Assembly (NCBI GenBank): GCA_010909725.1
Contig: JAACMV010000027.1
Location: 434,001-498,000 of the forward strand
Direction: 5' to 3'
DNA length: 64,000 nt
Source: Picochlorum sp. 'celeri'
Taxonomy: Eukaryota; Chlorophyta; Trebouxiophyceae
Shown: positions 5,201-41,930 of the stretch, piece by piece
How positions within the stretch are numbered: position 1 is the stretch's first letter
Layout of the letters: every line of letters starts with the position of its first letter
Made by a program: the position numbers and the translations under genes
Notes under the pieces: model-generated
What the model saw: the letters and a program-made list of their open reading frames with translations, nothing else
What the model was told of the DNA's origin: nothing
The model's database searches: none

Positions 5201-6951
5201 AGCTCATCAGGTTCCTTTGATCCATTCAGCAACCTGGATCCTTTAGGCTCCTCTGATCCGTTTGGTTCGTCTGATCCATTTGGTGGCTCCTCAGATCCGT
5301 TTGGGTCGTCAGATCCGTTTGGCTCATCTGATCCATTTGGTGGCTCCTCAGATCCTTTTGGCTCGTCTGATCCGTTTGGTTCTTCAGATCCATTCGGTGG
5401 CTCATCAGATCCATTTGGCTCGTCTGATCCAATTTGGTGGTTCATCAGATCCGTTTGGCTCGTCTGATCCATTTGGTGGCTCATCTGATCCATTTGGTGG
5501 CTCATCTGATCCGTTTGGTGGCTCCTCTGATCCGTTTGGTGGAATGTCAGATCCATTTGCAGGACTATCAGATCCATTCGCAATGTCTGAGATAGAACTC
5601 AAGCTTGCAACATCCACACCATGGGACCCTCTCAGGGGGTTGGGTCTCAGGTATGAAGGGAGGTAACATCAAAGCCACCACCCCGATTGCCTTTACAACT
5701 AGTGTGCTTGCTTGGGGATTCATGGGATTCCATAATGCATTCGAAAAATCTGGCCAAACAGACTATTTGATGGACTCTGTCAAAACTGGAGCAGATTATC
5801 TCATGAAGGTTCATCGTAAGAATTCCTTTGGAAGATAAATCACTGTTAGTCACAAGGGTTGGTGACGTAGAAACGCGAACCAGAGCTCTGGTATCGCCCA
5901 GAAGATGCCAGAACAAGAGAAGCGTTGCTGTAGACCTCTACTCAAGCGTTGGAGGCTATGGCGCTGACTTGGGTGGATCTGTGTCAGCTGGACTTGCCGC
6001 TGCCTCCACCTTATTCAGAGAATCTGGATATGAGACTCCCGAGTACACAGAAAACTTCTCAACAAAGCCAAAGAAGTTTATGAAGACTCGGTTGGTGCCA
6101 AGTTTAGAGTCGACAGGGGCGACCATAACCTGTCCGAGCTGTACAACTCGTCAAGCATGTATGATGACCTTGCCTGGGCAGCAGGCTGGCTATACAAAGC
6201 AACGAAAGAGCAGCGATATCTGGACGATGTGTATACTCATTACATATCGTATTTAGAAGAAGAATCATCAGCATCTTCTTGGAAGTACGCATTCGATTGG
6301 GACAATGTCTTCTGGCCTCTGAATGTCTTGATGGCTCAAGAAACTGGCAACTCAACCTTTGTCAAGCACAGCGAAGACTTCCTCAGCAACTGGATGTGTG
6401 CAAATAATGCAGCAAACTATACACGACGAGGTCGAGCATATAATGCATTTAGTGCACCCTTGGGGTCGACTGCAAATATTGCCATGTCTGCTTTCATGTA
6501 TGCAGACCTCATTGAGCACAAAGACTCTGCCAAATCACAAGCATACAAGTGCTGGGGACTCTCACAAGTTCGCTACATGATGGGAGATGCAGGTCGAAGC
6601 ATGGTGGTAGGACAAGGACATAATCCACCCAAACGAACTCAAGACAGAGCTGCTGCGTGCCCAGCGCGCCCAGGTGTCTGCAACAGGGTAACAAGCTATC
6701 TATCTCCCGACCCAGACACATATCAACTGACTGGCGCGTTGGTCCATGGTCCTGGCAAAAGCGATTATTATATTGACGAACGAACAAATGACGCATCCAT
6801 GGTGGGAATAGAAAACAATGCTGGTTTCACTGGAGCCCTTGCAGGAGCTGCCATGCTTCCTAGTGGCATGTGGGAAATCTGTTTGCAGCAATTCGGAATT
6901 TACAGAGACGATCCCATCTGCGGATCATTCCTCACTATTAGATACTGTAGA
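2238..6951 (+). CDS. Cellulose-synthase-like GT2 fused to a GH9 (KORRIGAN-like) domain; frame interrupted by many indels
   Basis: The ATG at 2238 opens a Ser/Glu-rich cytosolic N-terminus. Two membrane segments follow (near 3095-3240), then a processive GT2 domain (about 3330-4060) with LLDDG, FDADQ, TEDFAL and the QQRSRW (QxxRW) motif, then further membrane segments (4090-4790). Directly in frame after the last helix comes a GH9 N-terminus (SEALSNSLYFFDTQR), an insert of DPF repeats, and the rest of GH9 (LSGGW, GGYGADLGGS, NPPKR, SPDPDTYQL, NNAGFTGALAG). Likely introns are 2572-2646, 4321-4384 and 4907-4972. Frame changes fall near 2960, 3240, 4270, 4667, 4985, 5170, 5432, 5630, 5830-5940 and 6053. 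Codons are well conserved between them and several lie at homopolymers, so consensus errors are likelier than decay. The C-terminal end near 6951 is approximate. Confidence 0.72.
5160..5585 (+). repeat. In-frame minisatellite coding SSDPFG(G) repeats inside the GH9 region
   Basis: About 19-20 copies of a Ser-Ser-Asp-Pro-Phe-Gly unit, alternating SSDPFG and SSDPFGG (18- and 21-bp units), sit between GH9 strand FRVSWR and the LSGGW core. Third positions vary (GATCCATTT, GATCCGTTT, GATCCTTTT), so the amino-acid repeat appears to be under selection. One copy near 5432 has an extra A that breaks the frame. Tandem copy number may differ between strains. Confidence 0.85.
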
Positions 6952-9461: not shown

Positions 9462-10556
9462 ATGATTAAGATTGGAATGGTTGCAGCCCTTGGGGCTGGA
9501 ATGTTTGCTTCGGCGAATGCTGCTGCAGGTGGGTGACCAGGCTTCGGATGGACGAGGTCTCTGTTGCTTTCTTGCTTTTTTGGAGTTTGGCGTTGCAAAA
9601 AGTTGCACACGAGTTGAGGAGTGTGCGGGAATCTCTGCTGGAAACGTGTGATTGAGACTCTATCTGATTGTTTGACTGGAGTCATGGTCGTCTTTTGAAG
9701 CGACCGTACACACGGCCAGTGAAAGACTCAGCATCTAGAAGCAAACATGAAAACCAGCAAAAATGTTTACAATGCGAGTAAAGATCATCGTGACTAATTG
9801 TTGATACGTACTACTGTGCAGGACTCTCTCTGTATGTGCCACACAATGTGGAGGCCGATGCCACTGGCGCGACATGGACGGGGACATTTGAGGCTCCAAT
9901 GACCGTCTCATACAATGGAAAACTGGAGTACGCCCGCATTCTGCGTGGAGAATGGAGCATCTTGCTTTGTGGAGCCCTCTTCTGACATTGTGACTGCTGA
10001 ATACACAGACGCCAAGGAGATTATTCCCTTTGAAGTGGGCGGCATGGATCCAGACACCCCATACACTTGCTACATTGCAACAATTCTTCCAAAAAGCATG
10101 GTCTGCAGTGACCCAGTCGCTTTCAGAACTGGTGCAAACGCAGGAGCAGTTCAGAATGCAGCAGCGCAAGCTGTTGTTCCAGAGCTGCCAGTTGTCACAG
10201 AGCCTGTTTTTGTTGCTGATAATGTGGTGGATGTACCAGCCCCAGCAGTTGATGTACAGGCTGCAGCACTCGATGCCCCAGCCCCAACAGTTGACGCCCC
10301 AGCTCCAGCAGTCGATGCCCCAGCCCCAACAGTCGACGCCCCAGCTCCAACAGTGGATGCTCCAGCTCCAGCAGTGGATGCACCAGCTCCAGCAGTGGAT
10401 GCACCAGCTCCAACAGTGGATGCTCCAGCACCAACAGTCGATGCTCCAGCCCCTGAAGCTATTGTTGAGACCTTGGATGCCAGAGAGACTCCATCTGATG
10501 TTCCAGAGGAGGGATCTGTTACACAAGGAGTTGCCACATTCACCCCACTTGAGTAA
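9462..10556 (+). CDS. Secreted Ala-Pro-rich repeat protein, probably extracellular matrix
   Basis: Exon 1 (9462-9528) encodes a signal peptide (MIKIGMVAALGAGMFASANA). A GT..AG intron (9529-9821) joins in frame to GLSLYVPHNVEADATG. A folded part with four to five Cys and an FxVGGMDPDTPYTCY segment resembles a fibronectin-III-like module. It is followed by a low-complexity tail of VDAPAP(A/T) repeats and an acidic C-terminus ending at TAA 10554-10556. One frame break lies at an A run near 9912; removing one A restores the frame. Ala-Pro and Val-Asp-Ala-Pro arrays are typical substrates for prolyl hydroxylation and arabinogalactan-type glycosylation in green cells, so a wall or scale glycoprotein is plausible (inference). 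Confidence 0.6.
10240..10455 (+). repeat. 21-bp coding minisatellite, VDAPAPA/VDAPAPT units
   Basis: About ten tandem 21-bp units of the form GTnGAtGCnCCAGCnCCAnCA encode Val-Asp-Ala-Pro-Ala-Pro-(Ala/Thr). Units differ mostly at synonymous positions. The array makes up most of the C-terminal third of the secreted protein. Confidence 0.85.
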
Positions 10557-30051: not shown

Positions 30052-31980
30052 ATGAATGTGCTACGGCGACGCAGTCTTGAAGGTCTGTACACCGCAAAAC
30101 ACAACTTGTCCAAAGTTGTGTTTTCGAAGCGAGCCAGTACGTCACATGCTGCAGAACAATACGCAGCAGAAGTGAAGAAAATTTCATGTCGTATCAATGG
30201 ACATGATATTACTGTGCCAGAAGGGACAACAATTCTAGGTGCAGCGATGAATCTGGGTCAATATTTGAGTCCTTTTCGGAAAGACTTGGTAGATCAACAG
30301 ATTTTCATTCCAACGTTGTGTACGGATCCTCGCTTACCCACGCATCCAGGAACATGTCGTTTATGTTTGGTGGAGGTGAATGGGAGATTAGTTCCAGCCT
30401 GTGCGACGCCATTGACAGAACACATGGATGTTGTGACTGATACAGATCAGGTCCAAAAGTCAGTGAGGGATATGCTAGGGTTGTTGAAATCGACGCACAA
30501 GTACGATTGTATGAATTGTGAAGTGAGTGGAAACTGCGAGTTTCAGGATTTGATTAAACGGTACAATGTATCCGATGGATTTGTACGAAGGAGGCAGCGC
30601 AGGCATGAATGGGATGATGAGGAGATGCATGACTCGAGCTCTGCATCATTGGAGATTGATTTAGACAAATGCATTAAATGCGGTAGATGCATTACTGCAT
30701 GCAATATGATTCAGCATATGAATGTGCTTGGATGGGAGGGCAGAGCGGGTGGCAGTGTACATCCAGCAGTGATGACGGATTCTTTGAATTCAAGTCAGTG
30801 TATTGCATGTGGACAGTGTTCTGCTGTGTGTCCTGTTGGAGCCATCATAGAGAGATCAGAGTGGAGAGATGTTTTAGATGTATTAGATTCGAAAAGAAAA
30901 GTGACAGTGTGTATTACAGCTCCGGCAGTCCGCGTATCAATCGGCGAGGAGGTTGGGTTTGGACCAGGTGCAATTACTCAAGGCCAAATGGTTGCTGCCC
31001 AGAGAAAGTTGGGATTCGACTATGTTTTTGATGTCAACTTTGCTGCGGATTTGACCATCATGGAAGAGGGTTCTGAATTCATTCAAAGGATGAAAGAAGA
31101 TTCAAATTTACCAATGTTCACATCATGCTGTCCTGCGTGGATTACATTGGTCGAAAAGAGCTATCCAGAGCTCATTCCACATATATCTACCTGTAAATCC
31201 CCACAACAGATGTTGGGAGCAATTGCAAAGCGATACTTTGCATCCTTGCTGAACCTCAAGGCAGAAGATATCTGTTTAGTATCAATCATGCCATGTACAG
31301 CAAAGAAGTTTGAGGCAGAGCGTGAGGAAAATAAAGTTGATGGCATAACTGATGTTGATTATGTTCTTACGACAAGGGAATTGGGAAAGATGCTGCGTCA
31401 TAGAAGAATACCATTGGCATCATTACCAGAGTCATCATTTGATTCTCCCCTTGGTATGTCCTCAGGTGGTGCTGTTTTATTTGGCGCGTCAGGAGGAGTC
31501 ATGGAGTCGGCTTTGAGAACATCGTATGAACTGATAACAAAGCAGCCGTTCCCAAAGATGGAGCTGGATGATGTACGAGGGGTTAAGGGTGTGAAATCTA
31601 GTACTGTGCACTTCCCAGAGGAGTCGCCACTATTCCCTGGAAAAGATGTTCGAGTTGCTGTTGTGTCTGGAATAGGCAACGTACGTCACGTCATAGACGA
31701 TATGTATGATCCTCAGGGACAGAGAAAGTACGATTTTATAGAAGTCATGGCTTGTATTGGAGGCTGTATTGGAGGTGGTGGGCAACCCAAATCAAAAGAC
31801 CCACAGGCAGTATTGAAACGCATGGGATCAATCTATGCCCTTGATAAGATGTCCAAGATACGACGAGCACATGAGAACCCAGAAGTTGCAGAACTGTATG
31901 AGAAATTTTTGGGACAACCTGGTGGACACACAGCGCATACACTGCTCCATACGTCATACACAGATCGCACAGTCAAATAA
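30052..31980 (+). CDS. [FeFe]-hydrogenase with full N-terminal Fe-S relay
   Basis: 642 residues, intact. A basic, hydroxylated presequence (about 1-38; RRRSLEGL, KRAST) is followed by a [2Fe-2S] domain (Cys in PTLCTDP, TCRLCLV, VPACATP, about 91-120). Next come a His-Cys3 cluster (HKYDCMNCEVSGNC, about 150-163) and two [4Fe-4S] clusters (CIKCGRCITAC and CIACGQCSAVCPVG). The H-cluster motifs are TSCCPAW (about 356), MPCTAKKFE (about 412) and ACIGGCIGGGGQP (about 566). The conserved Pro of motif L3 (ACPGGC) is Ile here. The small-subunit-like C-terminus is present. It should make or oxidise H2 with ferredoxin or NADH partners; the presequence suggests mitochondrion or plastid. No HydE/F/G maturase is in the window. 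Confidence 0.93.
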   Translation: MNVLRRRSLEGLYTAKHNLSKVVFSKRASTSHAAEQYAAEVKKISCRINGHDITVPEGTTILGAAMNLGQYLSPFRKDLVDQQIFIPTLCTDPRLPTHPGTCRLCLVEVNGRLVPACATPLTEHMDVVTDTDQVQKSVRDMLGLLKSTHKYDCMNCEVSGNCEFQDLIKRYNVSDGFVRRRQRRHEWDDEEMHDSSSASLEIDLDKCIKCGRCITACNMIQHMNVLGWEGRAGGSVHPAVMTDSLNSSQCIACGQCSAVCPVGAIIERSEWRDVLDVLDSKRKVTVCITAPAVRVSIGEEVGFGPGAITQGQMVAAQRKLGFDYVFDVNFAADLTIMEEGSEFIQRMKEDSNLPMFTSCCPAWITLVEKSYPELIPHISTCKSPQQMLGAIAKRYFASLLNLKAEDICLVSIMPCTAKKFEAEREENKVDGITDVDYVLTTRELGKMLRHRRIPLASLPESSFDSPLGMSSGGAVLFGASGGVMESALRTSYELITKQPFPKMELDDVRGVKGVKSSTVHFPEESPLFPGKDVRVAVVSGIGNVRHVIDDMYDPQGQRKYDFIEVMACIGGCIGGGGQPKSKDPQAVLKRMGSIYALDKMSKIRRAHENPEVAELYEKFLGQPGGHTAHTLLHTSYTDRTVK

Positions 31981-35682: not shown

Positions 35683-36370
35683 TCAGGCCGTACATTCTAT
35701 TGTGGCCTTTCCTTCGAAGGTAAAGCCCACGGATCGCTCTCGAGCCTGACCATTGCAGGAGTATGAAACAACGACGCTGTACTTTCCAAATACCTTGTCT
35801 GTGCCACTCCCATCCCTATCAATTTCAATAGTAGAGGTGTAGGTTTTGCCATTCACATTGGCCTCTTTTCCCTGTTGGAGGTAGCAAACTTGATAATCAG
35901 AAACGATGAGAGAATTAACACCTGTCTCACATTTGACGATGCTCTCATTCTTTCCTGAATTGATGTAGGGAAGGACATGGTTTAGAAATGCCACTTCCAC
36001 AACTTGGGACAGCTGCTGTCGGTCCGAAAAGGAGTTGATGGGATGGTATTCATAGCGCCTCGTATCCCATAGATTCGGGAGTTCGCGTTTCTCTTCCACA
36101 TAGTACTTGTTGGGGTCGCACTGCAGTCATGCAAAGGTTGTCCTTTTTTGGGTTACAACTTACTCATACAAGAGAAAAACAGCATTGCCTGGATACAAAG
36201 CTATCGAGACGACCCACCGTTCTCTTTTTAAGTGTGATTGGCTCTTTGCTGCTCCATCTATAGATATCTGTTTTGCCTGCTTCCGCGAAATAGGTCACCC
36301 CGTCTACGCAGTCCCTTCGTGCTGATACCAAGGAGGCCAGCAGAACCAGTGCAACCAGTCGATGCATCAT
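35683..36370 (-). CDS. Secreted cysteine-containing protein A (outer left member of the mirror cluster)
   Basis: Two exons, 36370-36170 and 36120-35683. The 49-nt intron (GTATGA..CTGCAG) joins CCFSL|CDPNKYYV in phase 0, giving 212 residues. A signal peptide (MMHRLVALVLLASLVSARR) precedes a secreted chain with no membrane helix. The C-terminal half (SLIVSDYQVCYLQQGK, FGKYSVVVSYSCNGQ, FTFEGKATIEC) matches protein A' at 39345-39968 in order, spacing and Cys positions, although identity is low. I recognise no named family. Function unknown; its position in a mirror-symmetric locus suggests an ancient inverted duplication. Confidence 0.65.
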
Positions 36371-37045
36371 GCTTGAACAGTCTTGCGTCTGTTTCAACGT
36401 GAAAACAGAGAATATTGGTTGAAATTTTATACCTTGGTCACGACTGAAACCCTTGGGTTTCATGATTGCCATTTCATGCGATACATATCGCGATACATAT
36501 TGCGGTATCGGAATCCGATAATCGGATACCGATCGGTCCACGCGTTCCGGAACGATCCGGATCCGGAACGAACGTTACTCTTCTGCAAGCACATTTCAAT
36601 GGGTTAAATGATTTGCATGCCACTGCTGCCACCACACCGCGGGCAAGTTTACCCTAAATTATAGGTTTGCTTAAAGCAAACCAAATGGTTGTTGGACCAT
36701 TACTGCTGCTACTAGTATCTTGTGGATATTTAAACAAAGATAGTCGGTTACAGAGACACATTGTGGGTGTATATCGAATCGATTTAACAAAGAAATTATT
36801 GCTACAAAGACTATACCGTGGTTGGGCGTCTGTAAGACCTTGACAGAGACCAAAATTTTGCTGCCACTCTTCTACATGGGTCTTGTTCCCACAAAACAAA
36901 GGACTTGGACCGGTCTTGCGGGTTAACAGATCACATGCTGGCTTTATTATTACGTGTGTCTAACCCTCTCGGGAATTTTTAGTTCAACATGAATTTCCAT
37001 GTTCAGCAGACCTGTTTGGTAATCAACCAGGAGGGGTGAGCATGG
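36371..37045. other. Gene-free stretch with a cluster of perfect palindromes at 36490-36570
   Basis: AT-rich spacer between A and B. Around 36488-36570 lie TATCGCGATA, an imperfect 29-bp dyad at 36503-36531 (outer CGGTATC/GATACCG, inner ATCCGAT/ATCGGAT), CGTTCCGGAACG (36543-36554) and TCCGGATCCGGA (about 36556-36567). No gene is recognised. Confidence 0.55.
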
Positions 37046-37450
37046 TTACTGTTGTTCAACGATCGGATCACAATTGCCTCTGTCAAGGTTGTACTGGTAG
37101 CCTTTTGCGCATATCACACAATCGTTGAATTCATAAGAGCAGGATTTGCAGTTTGGATCAGTGCATTTTGTGCAGGTGCCATTTTTTTGAAAGTTAGGTC
37201 CATATCCGTCCAGACAAGCAGTTGGAATATCAGGAATGCATTGGTTCTTGGATGGGCTCACTTTATAACCTGGATCACAACGTTCACAATTGTAATTTAT
37301 TTTTGTTCCTTTCTTATATAGTTTGACGTCGATTCTCTCACAGCAGCTAATGATTCGGCCGCTATTCCGGCATCGCGCTTCAGTTGCTGTGAAGAAAGAG
37401 AGCTCCAACAGGGCCAGGCCGATCAGGCTGAGAATCAGGGTGAATCGCAT
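37046..37450 (-). CDS. Secreted cysteine-rich protein B (inner left member)
   Basis: 134 residues. ATG 37450 is chosen because it is the first ATG in frame and starts the signal peptide MRFTLILSLIGLALLELS, identical to B'. The mature chain has 14 cysteines in a C-CC-CxxC-C-C-CxxC-CxxC-CxxC-C type order, with CERCDPGYKVSPSKNQC and CKSCSYEFNDCVIC. This resembles the growth-factor-receptor/furin-like cysteine-rich repeats used in many protist surface proteins. No membrane anchor is seen. The first 54 coding bases and the 5' flank lie inside the left palindrome arm. The rest differs from B' almost everywhere except the cysteines and a few Gly/Tyr. Confidence 0.7.
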   Translation of the reverse strand: MRFTLILSLIGLALLELSFFTATEARCRNSGRIISCCERIDVKLYKKGTKINYNCERCDPGYKVSPSKNQCIPDIPTACLDGYGPNFQKNGTCTKCTDPNCKSCSYEFNDCVICAKGYQYNLDRGNCDPIVEQQ

Positions 37451-37734
37451 CTCCTCTGCATCCAACAGACCACAATCAGAAGTAAACAGGAGTAACCATA
37501 TGTCGGGATGAGGCGCAGCACGAATTCATGCGCAAACACGGTCCGACCACAGCGGAAGGAGGTGTGCCACCCCGAAGCACGGCGCGTACCTTGATGTTTG
37601 CTACAAAGATTGATCCTTTCTTCTCACAAGTTTTTCTTTGAAACTATTGAGTATTACGACTTTAACTCATTTAATAAATGTTTCGCATTTAAAACAGGTC
37701 GACCGGGAAGACTACCACGATCGTGGTAGAGGTG
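37397..37734. repeat. Left arm of 338-bp inverted repeat (palindrome)
   Basis: Reverse-complements 37894-38231 base for base without gaps; the only mismatch I found is 37461 versus 38167, in the 5' UTR. The arm spans codons 1-18 of gene B, its 5' UTR and presumed promoter, and ends with an 18-bp perfect palindrome (37712-37729) next to GGTCGACC. Near identity of both arms, against strong divergence just outside, points to recent duplication or ongoing arm-to-arm gene conversion. Confidence 0.95.
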
Positions 37735-37893
37735 GCTCATTTGCAAATATTTGTCCATCAATGGGCCAATCTGTTGCACCGGTGCAGGGTACCCCGCAGT
37801 AGAACCCCGGGGTTGGGCCATGGGCATGAATGGGTTCCCGCGGCCGGCAATGTGGTTGCATCGCGATGAGCCAATTGGCCGCCCATTTGCAAA
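37735..37893. repeat. 159-bp palindrome spacer dense in short perfect palindromes
   Basis: The unique centre of the inverted repeat. It contains ATTTGCAAAT, TGCACCGGTGCA (37775-37786), GGGTACCC, ACCCCGGGGT (37804-37813, at the symmetry centre), CCGCGG/GCCGGC, CATCGCGATG (37859-37868) and GCCAATTGGC (37870-37879). It should hold the start of both divergent promoters, and possibly a shared regulatory element. Confidence 0.8.
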
Positions 37894-38231
37894 CACCTCT
37901 ACCACGATCGTGGTAGTCTTCCCGGTCGACCTGTTTTAAATGCGAAACATTTATTAAATGAGTTAAAGTCGTAATACTCAATAGTTTCAAAGAAAAACTT
38001 GTGAGAAGAAAGGATCAATCTTTGTAGCAAACATCAAGGTACGCGCCGTGCTTCGGGGTGGCACACCTCCTTCCGCTGTGGTCGGACCGTGTTTGCGCAT
38101 GAATTCGTGCTGCGCCTCATCCCGACATATGGTTACTCCTGTTTACTTCTGATTGTGGTCTGTTGGTTGCAGAGGAGATGCGATTCACCCTGATTCTCAG
38201 CCTGATCGGCCTGGCCCTGTTGGAGCTCTCT
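37894..38231. repeat. Right arm of 338-bp inverted repeat (palindrome)
   Basis: Mirror partner of 37397-37734 about a centre at 37814. It ends at 38231, exactly after codon 18 of gene B' (ATG 38178), where similarity to the other arm stops abruptly. Confidence 0.95.
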
Positions 38232-38573
38232 GCAGCAGCAGAATATTCAATATGTCCTAACGCGGGGCCACCCATTTCCTGCTGCAAAAGCCCTCGCGAA
38301 ATACCACCGGATGGATTCCCTGGGATTGTCACGTACAAATGTGACGAATGCGACCCAGGGTTTGCCCTCTCTGCGAGCAAGGAGCAGTGTAGACCAGTCA
38401 ATGTGTGCAAAGATGGCGAGGGATTGGTTCGATACGATTCGACATCATGTCGGCCATGCGATGTCAAGAACTGCAAATCTTGCCACGAATCGTTCCTAAC
38501 CTGTACACAATGCAGAGGTGGTTATTATTTCTTTTACGACAAGTGTCGGAGGAATATTCCACTCTTTGCTTAA
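38178..38573 (+). CDS. Secreted cysteine-rich protein B' (inner right member)
   Basis: 131 residues from ATG 38178. Its signal peptide is identical to that of B (18 residues, then SAAAEYSIC here). The mature part has the same 14-cysteine framework as B: SCCKSPRE, CDECDPGFALSASKEQC, CRPCDVKNCKSCHESFLTCTQC, terminal DKC. Shared non-Cys landmarks are DPG(Y/F), the SxSK(N/E)QC turn and the NCKSC box. The 5' flank is the right palindrome arm. Likely secreted or loosely wall-bound; function unknown. A TTGCAG just before the start resembles a splice acceptor but is changed to ATGCAG in the other arm, so a 5' UTR intron is not supported. Confidence 0.7.
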   Translation: MRFTLILSLIGLALLELSAAAEYSICPNAGPPISCCKSPREIPPDGFPGIVTYKCDECDPGFALSASKEQCRPVNVCKDGEGLVRYDSTSCRPCDVKNCKSCHESFLTCTQCRGGYYFFYDKCRRNIPLFA

Positions 38574-39344
38574 GGTCACGATACATTTTGGCTAATGGCT
38601 GAGGCTGGTGTAGATGTTTCAGTCATGTATATGTGCTATCAAGCCATCTCTTGTTTTGCAACAATTGTCTTAATTGCTTTCCGGAATCTGTCGTAGGCTC
38701 TCAGCCAGTTGTAATATGTCAGGCACAGTTGGATTTTGTGGGTCTGTTGCTGCTTTTGCGAGGTAGATATCAACCTTCCTTTGTCGGTACTATCATGTCC
38801 AGACTGTTCTTTGAACCCGTCACTTCTTATTGATTTTCTTCTTTATTCATTCCTGAGTGCATTTAAATCCATTGCGACACGATTGAGAGCTGATGAACAA
38901 GACAATTACTGTGGGTTACTGCAGATATGTCCATCCCAAATCTGACCTGGTAAAACATACCTGTCCATCAGCCTCTGCTCTGATGCCTTCCGTGGCATTT
39001 TTTCGATACAACTTATACACTGTAACGCCGCCAAATAATGTAATATTCGAATCAATAAGGAATTTAAATGCCGAACTCACGCAAACTTTGGAGGATAAGT
39101 GAAAATAACAGTATCAATCCTGGGGGCACGTATTCACATTGTGTCGACAAGAGCGTGACCCGATTTGCGCAAAGCACGAATCAATTGATCTCGGTTTGGC
39201 AGTATTTCTCTATATTTATAGAAAGTTTGGAAATTTGGTGTCGGAAGATCGAATCGACAATATCTCTCCGACAATAGCAGTAGTAAGTCGAGCCGAGCAT
39301 AGACGGCTTTCAAACCCTTGCCTTTCTCTGCACAAAACACTGCG
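38574..39344. other. Gene-free stretch between B' and A'
   Basis: 771 bases with only short frames on either strand and no recognisable protein, RNA or repeat. It corresponds by mirror position to the A-B spacer on the left but shows no obvious sequence similarity to it by eye. Confidence 0.4.
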
Positions 39345-39968
39345 ATGAAGGGGATATTGAATTTAGCCTGCATTTCGCTGATTTTATGCACCATCGTGAA
39401 AGCACAACAGCCAAACTGCTTAAATCAGATCACAAAATTCGACACGTTGACTTTCAAGCTCCTGGAGGAATCGACGGGAATCGTTCAATTCAAGAACAGA
39501 TCTTGCCCATCAAGTACATGGACCGAAACATTTTACAAAGGTGAAGTGTATGGTGAGGACTGGTCTGTGAGCGGGGCAGAGGGAGTGACATTAGTTGGGG
39601 TCCTTCGAGACCAGGCTACCAGCCTCGGAGTTGATGTTTACAACATGCTCAATGATGTTGTGACAAAAAAATTTATACCAGCGCTCAAGTATACAGATTG
39701 TGGCGGAATTTCTTCTTATAATGTTGAGCAGCTCCAGTGGTGCACACTAAAGCCAGGCAAGGCCCACAAGGTTGACAAAACATTATACAAGGCCAACAAT
39801 GGTAACATTGGTGATGGAGAGAGGGTGACGTCCTACGAAAACATGAGTGTGAAGATTTCGTTCTTTTGCTATGGAGTTAGGCATGGGCACCATGCGACGT
39901 TTCAGTTTGGAGGACCATCTGTTCAAAAATGCCGCAATAAGGTGGTTTTCAACGGGAATACAAAGTAA
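39345..39968 (+). CDS. Secreted cysteine-containing protein A' (outer right member)
   Basis: 207 residues, single exon, from ATG 39345. A signal peptide (MKGILNLACISLILCTIVKA) precedes QQPNCLNQITKF. The C-terminal half (DCGGISSYNVEQLQWCTLKPGK, ENMSVKISFFCYG, FQFGGPSVQKC; cited in part) is collinear with protein A: Cys, 13-14 residues, Cys, a GK turn, then a S-V-x-(V/I)-S-(Y/F)-x-C strand and a final F-x-F-x-G-x6-C. No known family is recognised. Unlike A it has no intron. Distance from the palindrome centre to its stop is 2154 bases, against 2131 for A. Confidence 0.65.
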   Translation: MKGILNLACISLILCTIVKAQQPNCLNQITKFDTLTFKLLEESTGIVQFKNRSCPSSTWTETFYKGEVYGEDWSVSGAEGVTLVGVLRDQATSLGVDVYNMLNDVVTKKFIPALKYTDCGGISSYNVEQLQWCTLKPGKAHKVDKTLYKANNGNIGDGERVTSYENMSVKISFFCYGVRHGHHATFQFGGPSVQKCRNKVVFNGNTK

Positions 39969-40363
39969 TATCGGTTGTTAACTGTTGGATATTCTTCCCT
40001 TGAAAATGTGATTGCATCCGCGTTCTTTGTCCCAAGAGGCCGTACCTGCCTCGCCTCCCTGTCGAGTGATCTTTACTTGTGGGGCGCAAGTGCAGAGAAA
40101 AGGTGGCCTGTTCAGCTCTCTCGGTGGGATTATGCATCTGATGGCACCATTGTCTGTACAGAATTTTACACCTTTCAGGCATGCTAGGCCCTGTGACATT
40201 AACTTTGATACATCTGTAATGATGCTTTTAAAATATGACACAAATCGCATAGGACTGTCATGTGTCCTACTCAGTTCACACATGTCAGACAAAGAGATTC
40301 AGGACCCAGAGATTAATCATATGATTGCCCATGTATGGGAAACTTCGCTACATGCTTACATAG
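39969..40363. other. Convergent 3' spacer
   Basis: Spacer between the stop of A' and the stop of POLD2. A plus-strand open frame across 40012-40560 overlaps POLD2 antisense and shows no protein-like features, so it is not called. Confidence 0.45.
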
Positions 40364-41930
40364 TTACTCCAATGATGTATCGAAATACACAGGATGAACA
40401 TCGAGTGTATGTATGTTCACGAGCACCATCATTGGCTGCCGAGAGAATTCTGGAACACTCACAACTCGGGTTACCTGACCGTCAGGCCCTTGCACCTTTG
40501 TGGTACCATACGCCGCTTGTCCTCCTGCAAACAACACATGCGGCGTTTCTTCGAGAATAAATGGATCCTCATCGCTGTACGGATATGTCGCGAGGCTATC
40601 CGGAGCAGTCGGAATGATGTGCCTCCATGACAGCATGTTTTGCAGAATATCTGTGGGGGATTCATATGTAGAATACCTCATGACATCGTCAACGTTTTGC
40701 CCTGACGTTCCTAGAAATTGTACGCCATCTATTTCAAAAGCGTGTGGATTTGTGCATCGTACGAGCGATGATACGGAACATGCTCGCGGGAGGAGGCACC
40801 GATGGAGTGGCTGCTGTGGAAGAGAGTAATTCACTGGGTCTGTCACACCTGGCATCACATCCACGTCCACGGCCTCACAGAGATTCGCTAGAAGAGCATC
40901 TGCTTCCTGTATTGGCTCCAACGCTGTTGCTTGTTCTCGCACTGAAGCATACGACGTTGGCTGTGACAAACTCGAGCTGCCCTTGAGAATGCCCCCTGCA
41001 AACACAACTCTGACAATATTGGATGCCTGTTTCTGCTCTGGCTCCGATCCTAATATCCCAGCGCAATAATCGAGCATCATTTCAACTTTTAGCATATCTG
41101 TTTCCGAATCCATACCGAACGAAAATCCGCTCATGAGAGCCACATATGCCGGCCTTTTGTCCTGACCATCATCAGCAGAGAAAGAGATGGCACCTGACTG
41201 TGGGGCATGCCCCGCATAGCACACATCCACCACCCGGAAATCCCCTTCCTCAGAAACAGTCCCTTTAACAGCCACAATAACTCCGGTCACCATCGTACCA
41301 ACATCCAGCGCATCCCCCACCAGAGACACTCGCCCACCTTCATCCTCCAGCACCAAGACATCTCCAGCCTGCGTAAACCTATTCCCACCCAACTGAGCAC
41401 CCACATCCTTTGTATATTCATCCAGAATACTCGGCTTCAACGACATTTCTTTATACAGGGTACCGACGATACACACTTCCTTGTCCTCTGGAACATCCAG
41501 CACGCGAACACATGGCACATTGGGCCAAGCCGCATTGGCAGCCTTGACAACGTGAGGCCTCAGCTTGACCAGTCTGGAAAAGTACAATTGAGCAAACTGA
41601 CGCTCATAATCCCTCTTTTGTATCTTAAATCGACCATCGTGGTTCACATACGATGATTCTTTACGCTGTATCGTTGTTCCATTGTCTTTATCGAGTTGAA
41701 GATTTGAAATCTCACCCGTGTCAGTTCTGACGAATTCGTCAAAATTGACCGATCTGCATGGCAAAACACGACCACATCAAGACTTTATATTCTTTGGAAA
41801 ATACCAAGGTGTACTGTGATACCCGAGGGGCACAAGAGAAGTCAAAACTTGAAGGATTTGATTCAGAACATTTTTGAAAAATACAACAGCACATCTTTAC
41901 GGATTGCAATAAAGCCACGTACGTCTCCAT
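40364..41930 (-). CDS. DNA polymerase delta subunit 2 (POLD2, p50 type)
   Basis: A tiny first exon (41930-41923, ATGGAGAC) is joined across a 169-nt intron (41754-41922, GTACGT..ATGCAG) to 41753-40364, giving M-E-T-SVNFDEFVRTD and 465 residues. The OB-fold region has RFKIQKRDYERQFAQLYFSRL, IVGTLYKEMSLKPSIL and GNRFTQAGDVLVLEDEGGR. The calcineurin-like phosphoesterase domain, inactive in this family, includes VALMSGFSFG and FAGGILKG. The C-terminal part has DVMPGVTDPVNYSLPQQPLH and NPHAFEIDGVQFLGTSGQN. These are POLD2 hallmarks. The subunit holds the catalytic subunit and the accessory subunits of Pol delta, and of Pol zeta (REV3 is encoded at the end of this window). Confidence 0.92.

Follow-up and report, generated by a model that had tools for sequence, protein, structure and literature searches.

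A small, probably recombining palindrome between head-to-head genes for putatively secreted, cysteine-rich proteins in the diploid green alga Picochlorum celeri

In Caenorhabditis, intergenic regions in the form of inverted repeats have been described between divergent paralogues, where they are kept alike within each species, and at the pair F44E5.4/F44E5.5 the arms have 160 bp and the spacer 126 bp (PMC1803023). Homogenisation of such repeats is already known from that report, which describes the nearest case found for the Picochlorum locus described here, which is similar in having head-to-head paralogues, near-identical intergenic arms and a small spacer (PMC1803023). No published account of the Picochlorum locus was found among the matches listed from the open-licence literature. 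The sequence appears to belong to the phased diploid assembly of Picochlorum celeri, which totals 27.43 Mb with 15 scaffolds in each of its two sets, has a G+C content of 46%, and was built with FALCON-Unzip and FALCON-Phase from PacBio reads that are public as PRJNA598876 (PMC7225527). The genome searched comprises 27,412,692 bases in 30 contigs, and the window is the whole stretch of 64,000 nucleotides that was analysed, lying on the contig called C27 below; positions without a contig name are those of the window.

The palindrome is formed by two arms, 37397-37734 and 37894-38231, which are reverse complements at 337 of 338 positions, gapless, and flank a spacer of 159 nt (37735-37893), a recount having confirmed the near-perfect 338-bp arms with one mismatch of the earlier note. 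The left arm covers codons 1-18 of gene B (37397-37450) and the 284 nt 5' of its ATG, and the right arm covers the 284 nt 5' of the ATG of gene B' and its codons 1-18. Gene B (37046-37450, minus strand, ATG at 37450) encodes 134 amino acids and gene B' (38178-38573, plus strand, ATG at 38178) 131 amino acids of the same family, each having a leader and 14 cysteines. The sole mismatch, a T at 37461 (minus strand) facing 38167, gives B an upstream ATG in the haplotype of the window, where the other three arms have TTG. This ATG opens a frame of eight codons (MQRRCDSP, then a stop) overlapping the start of B, in C27 only, and might lower the translation of B from the C27 homologue. The identity between the two genes ends as had been claimed, the last matching base being the end of codon 18 in both of them, and over the 60 nt past this codon the ungapped DNA identity is 27%, approximately the chance level. 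Searching the 64-kb window for repeats with an exact seed of 16 revealed no second inverted repeat of at least 40 nt, and elsewhere in the genome the arm sequence has one match, which covers 62 nt at 81% and falls on the leader end of the paralogue D (on C23 and C3). A mobile element was considered as well and ruled out, as the spacer and an 18-nt palindrome of the arms are found solely here, on two homologues. The RNA gene search of the window returned none.

The homologue of C27 is C15, with 98.8% identity across 50,069 aligned columns. The C15 palindrome (468710-469544) has arms without any mismatch over their 338 positions, and 37461 is the only difference between the arms of the two contigs (one and zero differences between haplotypes). 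The spacer is present once per haplotype, and as assembled C15 carries it (469048-469206) solely as the reverse complement of the C27 spacer, within flanking DNA that is collinear and identical. An inverted spacer is the outcome expected from a crossover between the arms. The occurrence of the two orientations, on C27 and C15 as taken from one FALCON-Unzip assembly of PacBio reads and not from the reads, suggests that both are present in the sequenced DNA, their fixation on each homologue being a separate matter.

Assemblers have difficulty with long inverted repeats, and a segment of 159 nt would keep its orientation through polishing, which speaks for an origin of the inverted spacer, and even of the palindrome, from fold-back or mis-oriented PacBio reads. 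Such an artefact is nevertheless highly improbable. A folded-back palindrome is unlikely, judging from the unlike flanks on both sides, the presence of the arms on both homologous contigs, and proteins of other sources, in which the leader is joined to B (P0001) or the spacer plus arm to B' (P0006). Regarding the orientation, the gene model of P0006, with the source label Picre1, which we take to be P. renovo, reads through the spacer and arm region. Its peptides PLSGQIFANGPPLP (11 of 14 residues, E 1e-6) and IVVVFPVDL (9 of 9) match the spacer in the C15 orientation and then the arm, on one strand and in order, whereas with the C27 orientation the PLSGQIFANGPPLP piece falls on the opposite strand and a weaker continuous match is obtained (33% over 51 columns, E 2e-4). 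Thus, P0006 appears to fit the C15 orientation best, which argues against an orientation produced by the assembly.

Around the palindrome, the homologues are equal from 36297 to 40576 save for 37461 and the inverted spacer. This run of 4,280 nt is the longest difference-free one in the 50 kb compared, which have 470 differing positions, and at the mean rate 40 differences would be expected in it, a figure that overstates the case because the differences are clustered and another difference-free run, which has 3,038 nt and is truncated where the data end, occurs elsewhere. In the diploid trebouxiophyte Auxenochlorella, loss of heterozygosity is pervasive (PMC12633428), and by analogy the run is possibly a loss-of-heterozygosity tract. 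If so, the spacer would have flipped simultaneously with this event or later.

We consider it probable that, in this diploid green alga, the two head-to-head genes for secreted cysteine-rich proteins are separated by a small palindrome that recombines. The arms would pair on one chromatid, between sisters or between homologues; this pairing would lead to gene conversion that keeps them identical, and an occasional crossover between them would invert the 159-nt spacer. As B and B' are unmatched outside the arms, conversion would end there, leaving the mature chains to diverge. In this manner, B and B' likely keep a single control region and export leader for different products. We infer gene conversion as the cause of the arm identity. 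The position of the arms suggests promoter activity, and B and B' may be co-expressed.

The products of B and B' resemble secreted proteins that contain furin-like repeats, a likeness that comes from profile and structure predictions, and secretion is presumed for both of them. A genome search with either protein retrieves the other, as divergent paralogues. From the first mature cysteine on, 38 of 100 aligned residues are identical, 14 of which are cysteines, and 24 of 86 after removing the shared cysteines; the 14 cysteines had been correctly described as common to both proteins beyond the border, whereas the "few residues" said to accompany them was too low. Against Pfam, B matched DUF7630 alone and under the cut-off, and B' had no match, so that neither was assigned there to a furin-like family, and Furin-like_2 matched two of 19 family members with E up to 0.01, B not being one of them. 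When the profile of the B/B' family was compared to the PDB, all five matches to E 0.1 were R-spondin chains (best E 0.0015). The predicted structure of B is of low confidence (mean pLDDT 65.6, pTM 0.41), and its top Foldseek matches were R-spondin Fu1-Fu2 entries (best E 8.5e-4, TM-score 0.33). Peptide-pattern searches of bacterial, archaeal and viral contigs (one and six patterns) yielded no confirmed relatives.

The arms had been said to hold exactly the codons of the signal peptide. Cleavage sites were placed by eye through the (-3,-1) rule, no predictor being used, and cleavage would presumably occur at about ATEA/RC in B and AAA/EYS in B', a few codons after codon 18. The two proteins would thus have in common the beginning and the core of the signal peptide, and the statement holds for these, but not for the likely cleavage region, which lies past the border.

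The B/B' family has at least six loci per haplotype, namely B, B', D (C3:169663), E (C23:1145896), F (C2:902269) and G (C1:222607), and some of its protein relatives are listed under Picochlorum names. For the mature part, a tree of 23 rows was built, leaving out P0006 because its model leaves the family sequence partway. In this tree the B' group joins the D group (99/98), D being the nearest paralogue of B', and B joins P0001 (99/97). A clade of B, B' and their close orthologues was rejected, with AU p values of 0.0025 (LG+G4) and 0.0039 (mixture model), although an earlier tree of 11 rows had not rejected a B+B' clade (AU p 0.073). A wider clade, formed by the B group and the B' group with D, was not rejected with 23 rows (p 0.40 and 0.27). 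Mature B and B' do not appear to be sister sequences. The view of B and B' as otherwise diverged copies with a common leader was therefore adjusted: the leader is common, all 18 residues being the same, but the two are not merely drifting copies, as the mature chains are placed in separate sub-groups of the 23-row tree.

The nearest relative of B, P0001 from another source, is identical to it at 104 of 108 mature residues (96%) and differs at two of 18 leader residues, 6 and 18. The next mature relatives, P0002 and P0003 (56 and 55%), have leaders that share six and nine of 18 residues with that of B. On the other side, a gene-anchored alignment of the DNA of B' and D runs from approximately 110 nt upstream, across codon 18, and into the mature part; it uses laxer scores and no null, and is the only setting showing similarity 5' of the ATG. 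By strict local alignment, the 284 upstream nucleotides of the arm scored 20 against the 560 nt upstream of D, similar to shuffled sequences (mean 18.7, maximum of 300 shuffles 29). The D locus has no inverted repeat of at least 30 nt. Separately, D (L022) is without an internal stretch, including one cysteine, that is kept in its relative P0011. As B' and D are continuous over codon 18, where the similarity of B and B' ends, the break at the border is on the side of B. This pattern favours a direction in which the upstream region and leader of B' were transferred onto B. Since the wider clade is not rejected, an old mirror duplication would fit equally well, the inverted duplication being followed by continued conversion of its inner part.

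The same border could have arisen through a recent transfer, in which a single copying event placed 338 nt of B' in inverted orientation before B, the arms being identical mainly through recency. The discordance of leader and mature parts, the collinearity of B' and D over the border and the sharp break on the side of B all agree with it. We regard it as unlikely, because P0001 already has the leader on a B-type chain and the two have since diverged at two of 18 leader and four of 108 mature residues, while the arms differ here at zero (C15) or one (C27) of 338 positions. The sharing of the leader is thus older than the split of B and P0001. Arms diverged by 4%, a value borrowed from the protein difference between B and P0001, would be expected to show 13.5 differences, and the Poisson probability of finding at most one is 2e-5; it becomes 0.009 at 2% and 0.15 at 1%.

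Moreover, at leader residue 6, B and B' of this genome both have isoleucine, whereas P0001, P0004, P0005, P0006 and D have valine, which points to homogenisation after any such transfer, as concerted evolution would predict. The simplest reading of these sequences is that a single change was carried to the two genes by conversion, though it could be two parallel changes. A greater likeness of the arms within than between species is seen here as far as the 18 leader residues of protein relatives can show it. Homogenisation between the arms, which the earlier note had put forward, finds support in Ile6 and in the spacer inverted between the assembled homologues. Its other suggestion, an arms race with diversifying selection on the cargo, is unsupported, given how closely the mature chain of B agrees with P0001.

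Besides the arms, the locus is rich in short palindromes. The 18-nt perfect palindrome CTACCACGATCGTGGTAG lies in the left arm close to its inner end (37712-37729), with a second copy in the right arm (37899-37916), and when up to two mismatches are allowed it occurs across the whole genome in the four arms only (C27 and C15). Perfect palindromes within the spacer are ATTTGCAAAT and CAAATATTTG, overlapping (37739-37753), TGCACCGGTGCA, GGGTACCC and AACCCCGGGGTT (37775-37814), and CATCGCGATG, GCCAATTGGC and TTTGCAAA (37859-37893). Six of at least 10 nt, two of them overlapping, are present in the spacer, compared to 0.43 expected in dinucleotide shuffles, none of 500 shuffles reaching six. Outside the palindrome, no 159-nt stretch of the window, taken in 10-nt steps, has six, the next best having five, at 36481. 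This second-densest cluster (36481-36640), which contains CGTTCCGGAACG and TCCGGATCCGGA, is presumed to be non-coding and lies upstream of gene A. For palindromes of at least 12 nt, the spacer does not stand out, its count of two being reached at five other places in the window. Those of at least 10 nt are three times as dense outside open reading frames of at least 200 codons (2.6/kb) as inside them (0.87/kb), and the richness of the spacer is thus in part a general trait of the non-coding DNA here. The spacer palindromes may represent dimeric protein-binding sites working both ways.

These sites bear on the possibility that, in addition to recombining, the locus acts as an invertible promoter switch, where a spacer with a directional element would select B or B' by its flip, as in bacterial phase variation. 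It would agree with the fact that within 4.28 kb the homologues differ by the spacer orientation and one base alone, and since the arms are identical, any asymmetry of control has to stem from the spacer, from base 37461 or from outside. Yet the spacer is rich in self-symmetric sites, which read alike both ways, and no recombinase was found among the 19 open reading frames of the window scanned with Pfam, so that a switch seems very doubtful. A genome-wide search for one recombinase family, the tyrosine recombinases of PF00589, returned a single gene barely over the cut-off (27.4 vs 27.1 bits), on C30 and C4. This gene (L044, C30:564978; L045, C4:554673) has a reading frame of about 600 codons. 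Among the matches listed from the open-licence literature, no invertible promoters were found for algae, the papers concerning bacteria as far as their titles and abstracts tell. Were the switch true, a clone would contain mixed cell types, heterozygotes with one homologue set each way would arise, and a flip that alters expression would be a nuclear counterpart to bacterial phase variation.

Regarding the neighbouring genes, gene A (35683-36370, minus strand) is next outward from B and gene A' (39345-39968, plus strand) next outward from B'. Both have leader-like starts, and A has an intron at 36121-36169 as inferred by eye. The second exon of A matches A' at 21 of 77 residues (E 7e-5 in a single comparison), so that A' can be taken as a distant homologue of A. 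Their position outward of B and B' gives a mirror-like order of A, B, palindrome, B' and A'. An A-type gene is also located approximately 3 kb from D (C3:166304), and likewise on C23; the A and B families thus adjoin twice. Elsewhere in the window, tandem arrays at 5237-5578 and 10227-10453 have units of 18/21 nt and 21 nt, multiples of three, and may be coding, and 30052-31977 corresponds by Pfam to an iron-only hydrogenase with an N-terminal ferredoxin and a region of NADH-dehydrogenase-G type.

With its flipping marker of 159 nt and arms of 338 nt, the probable recombining palindrome would offer a compact natural case for watching arm-to-arm recombination in a diploid alga, and gene editing has been reported for the host species. 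It also suggests that an upstream region and export leader can remain common while the products diverge, which bears on the diversification of secreted-protein families.

Several described systems share part of these features. Arm-to-arm gene conversion with rarer inversion is known from the human Y palindrome P6; however, the chromosome is haploid there and each P6 arm measures about 100 kb, compared to 338 bp on a diploid pair here (PMC3723533). The Picochlorum locus probably works in the manner of P6 and of the Caenorhabditis repeats. The ves pairs of Babesia bovis are similar in being divergent genes with one bidirectional promoter and variation through gene conversion, but in ves silent donors supply the sequence to which the expressed cargo is converted, whereas in Picochlorum homogenisation affects the upstream region and leader and spares the cargo (PMC6630957). 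The MSG expression site of Pneumocystis, with its UCS and CRJE, likewise joins one upstream element to various cargo genes, although it is a single site with about 80 donors, in contrast to two fixed genes with two leader copies (PMC2743713). Relative to Caenorhabditis, where the paired genes of the main examples are near-identical throughout, the identity ends here inside the leader and the cargo belongs to different sub-groups; in addition, the spacer is inverted between homologues, of which the available text of the Caenorhabditis report makes no mention (PMC1803023). What is new at the Picochlorum locus is therefore an identity confined to the upstream region and leader, with cargo from different sub-groups and a spacer inverted between homologues.
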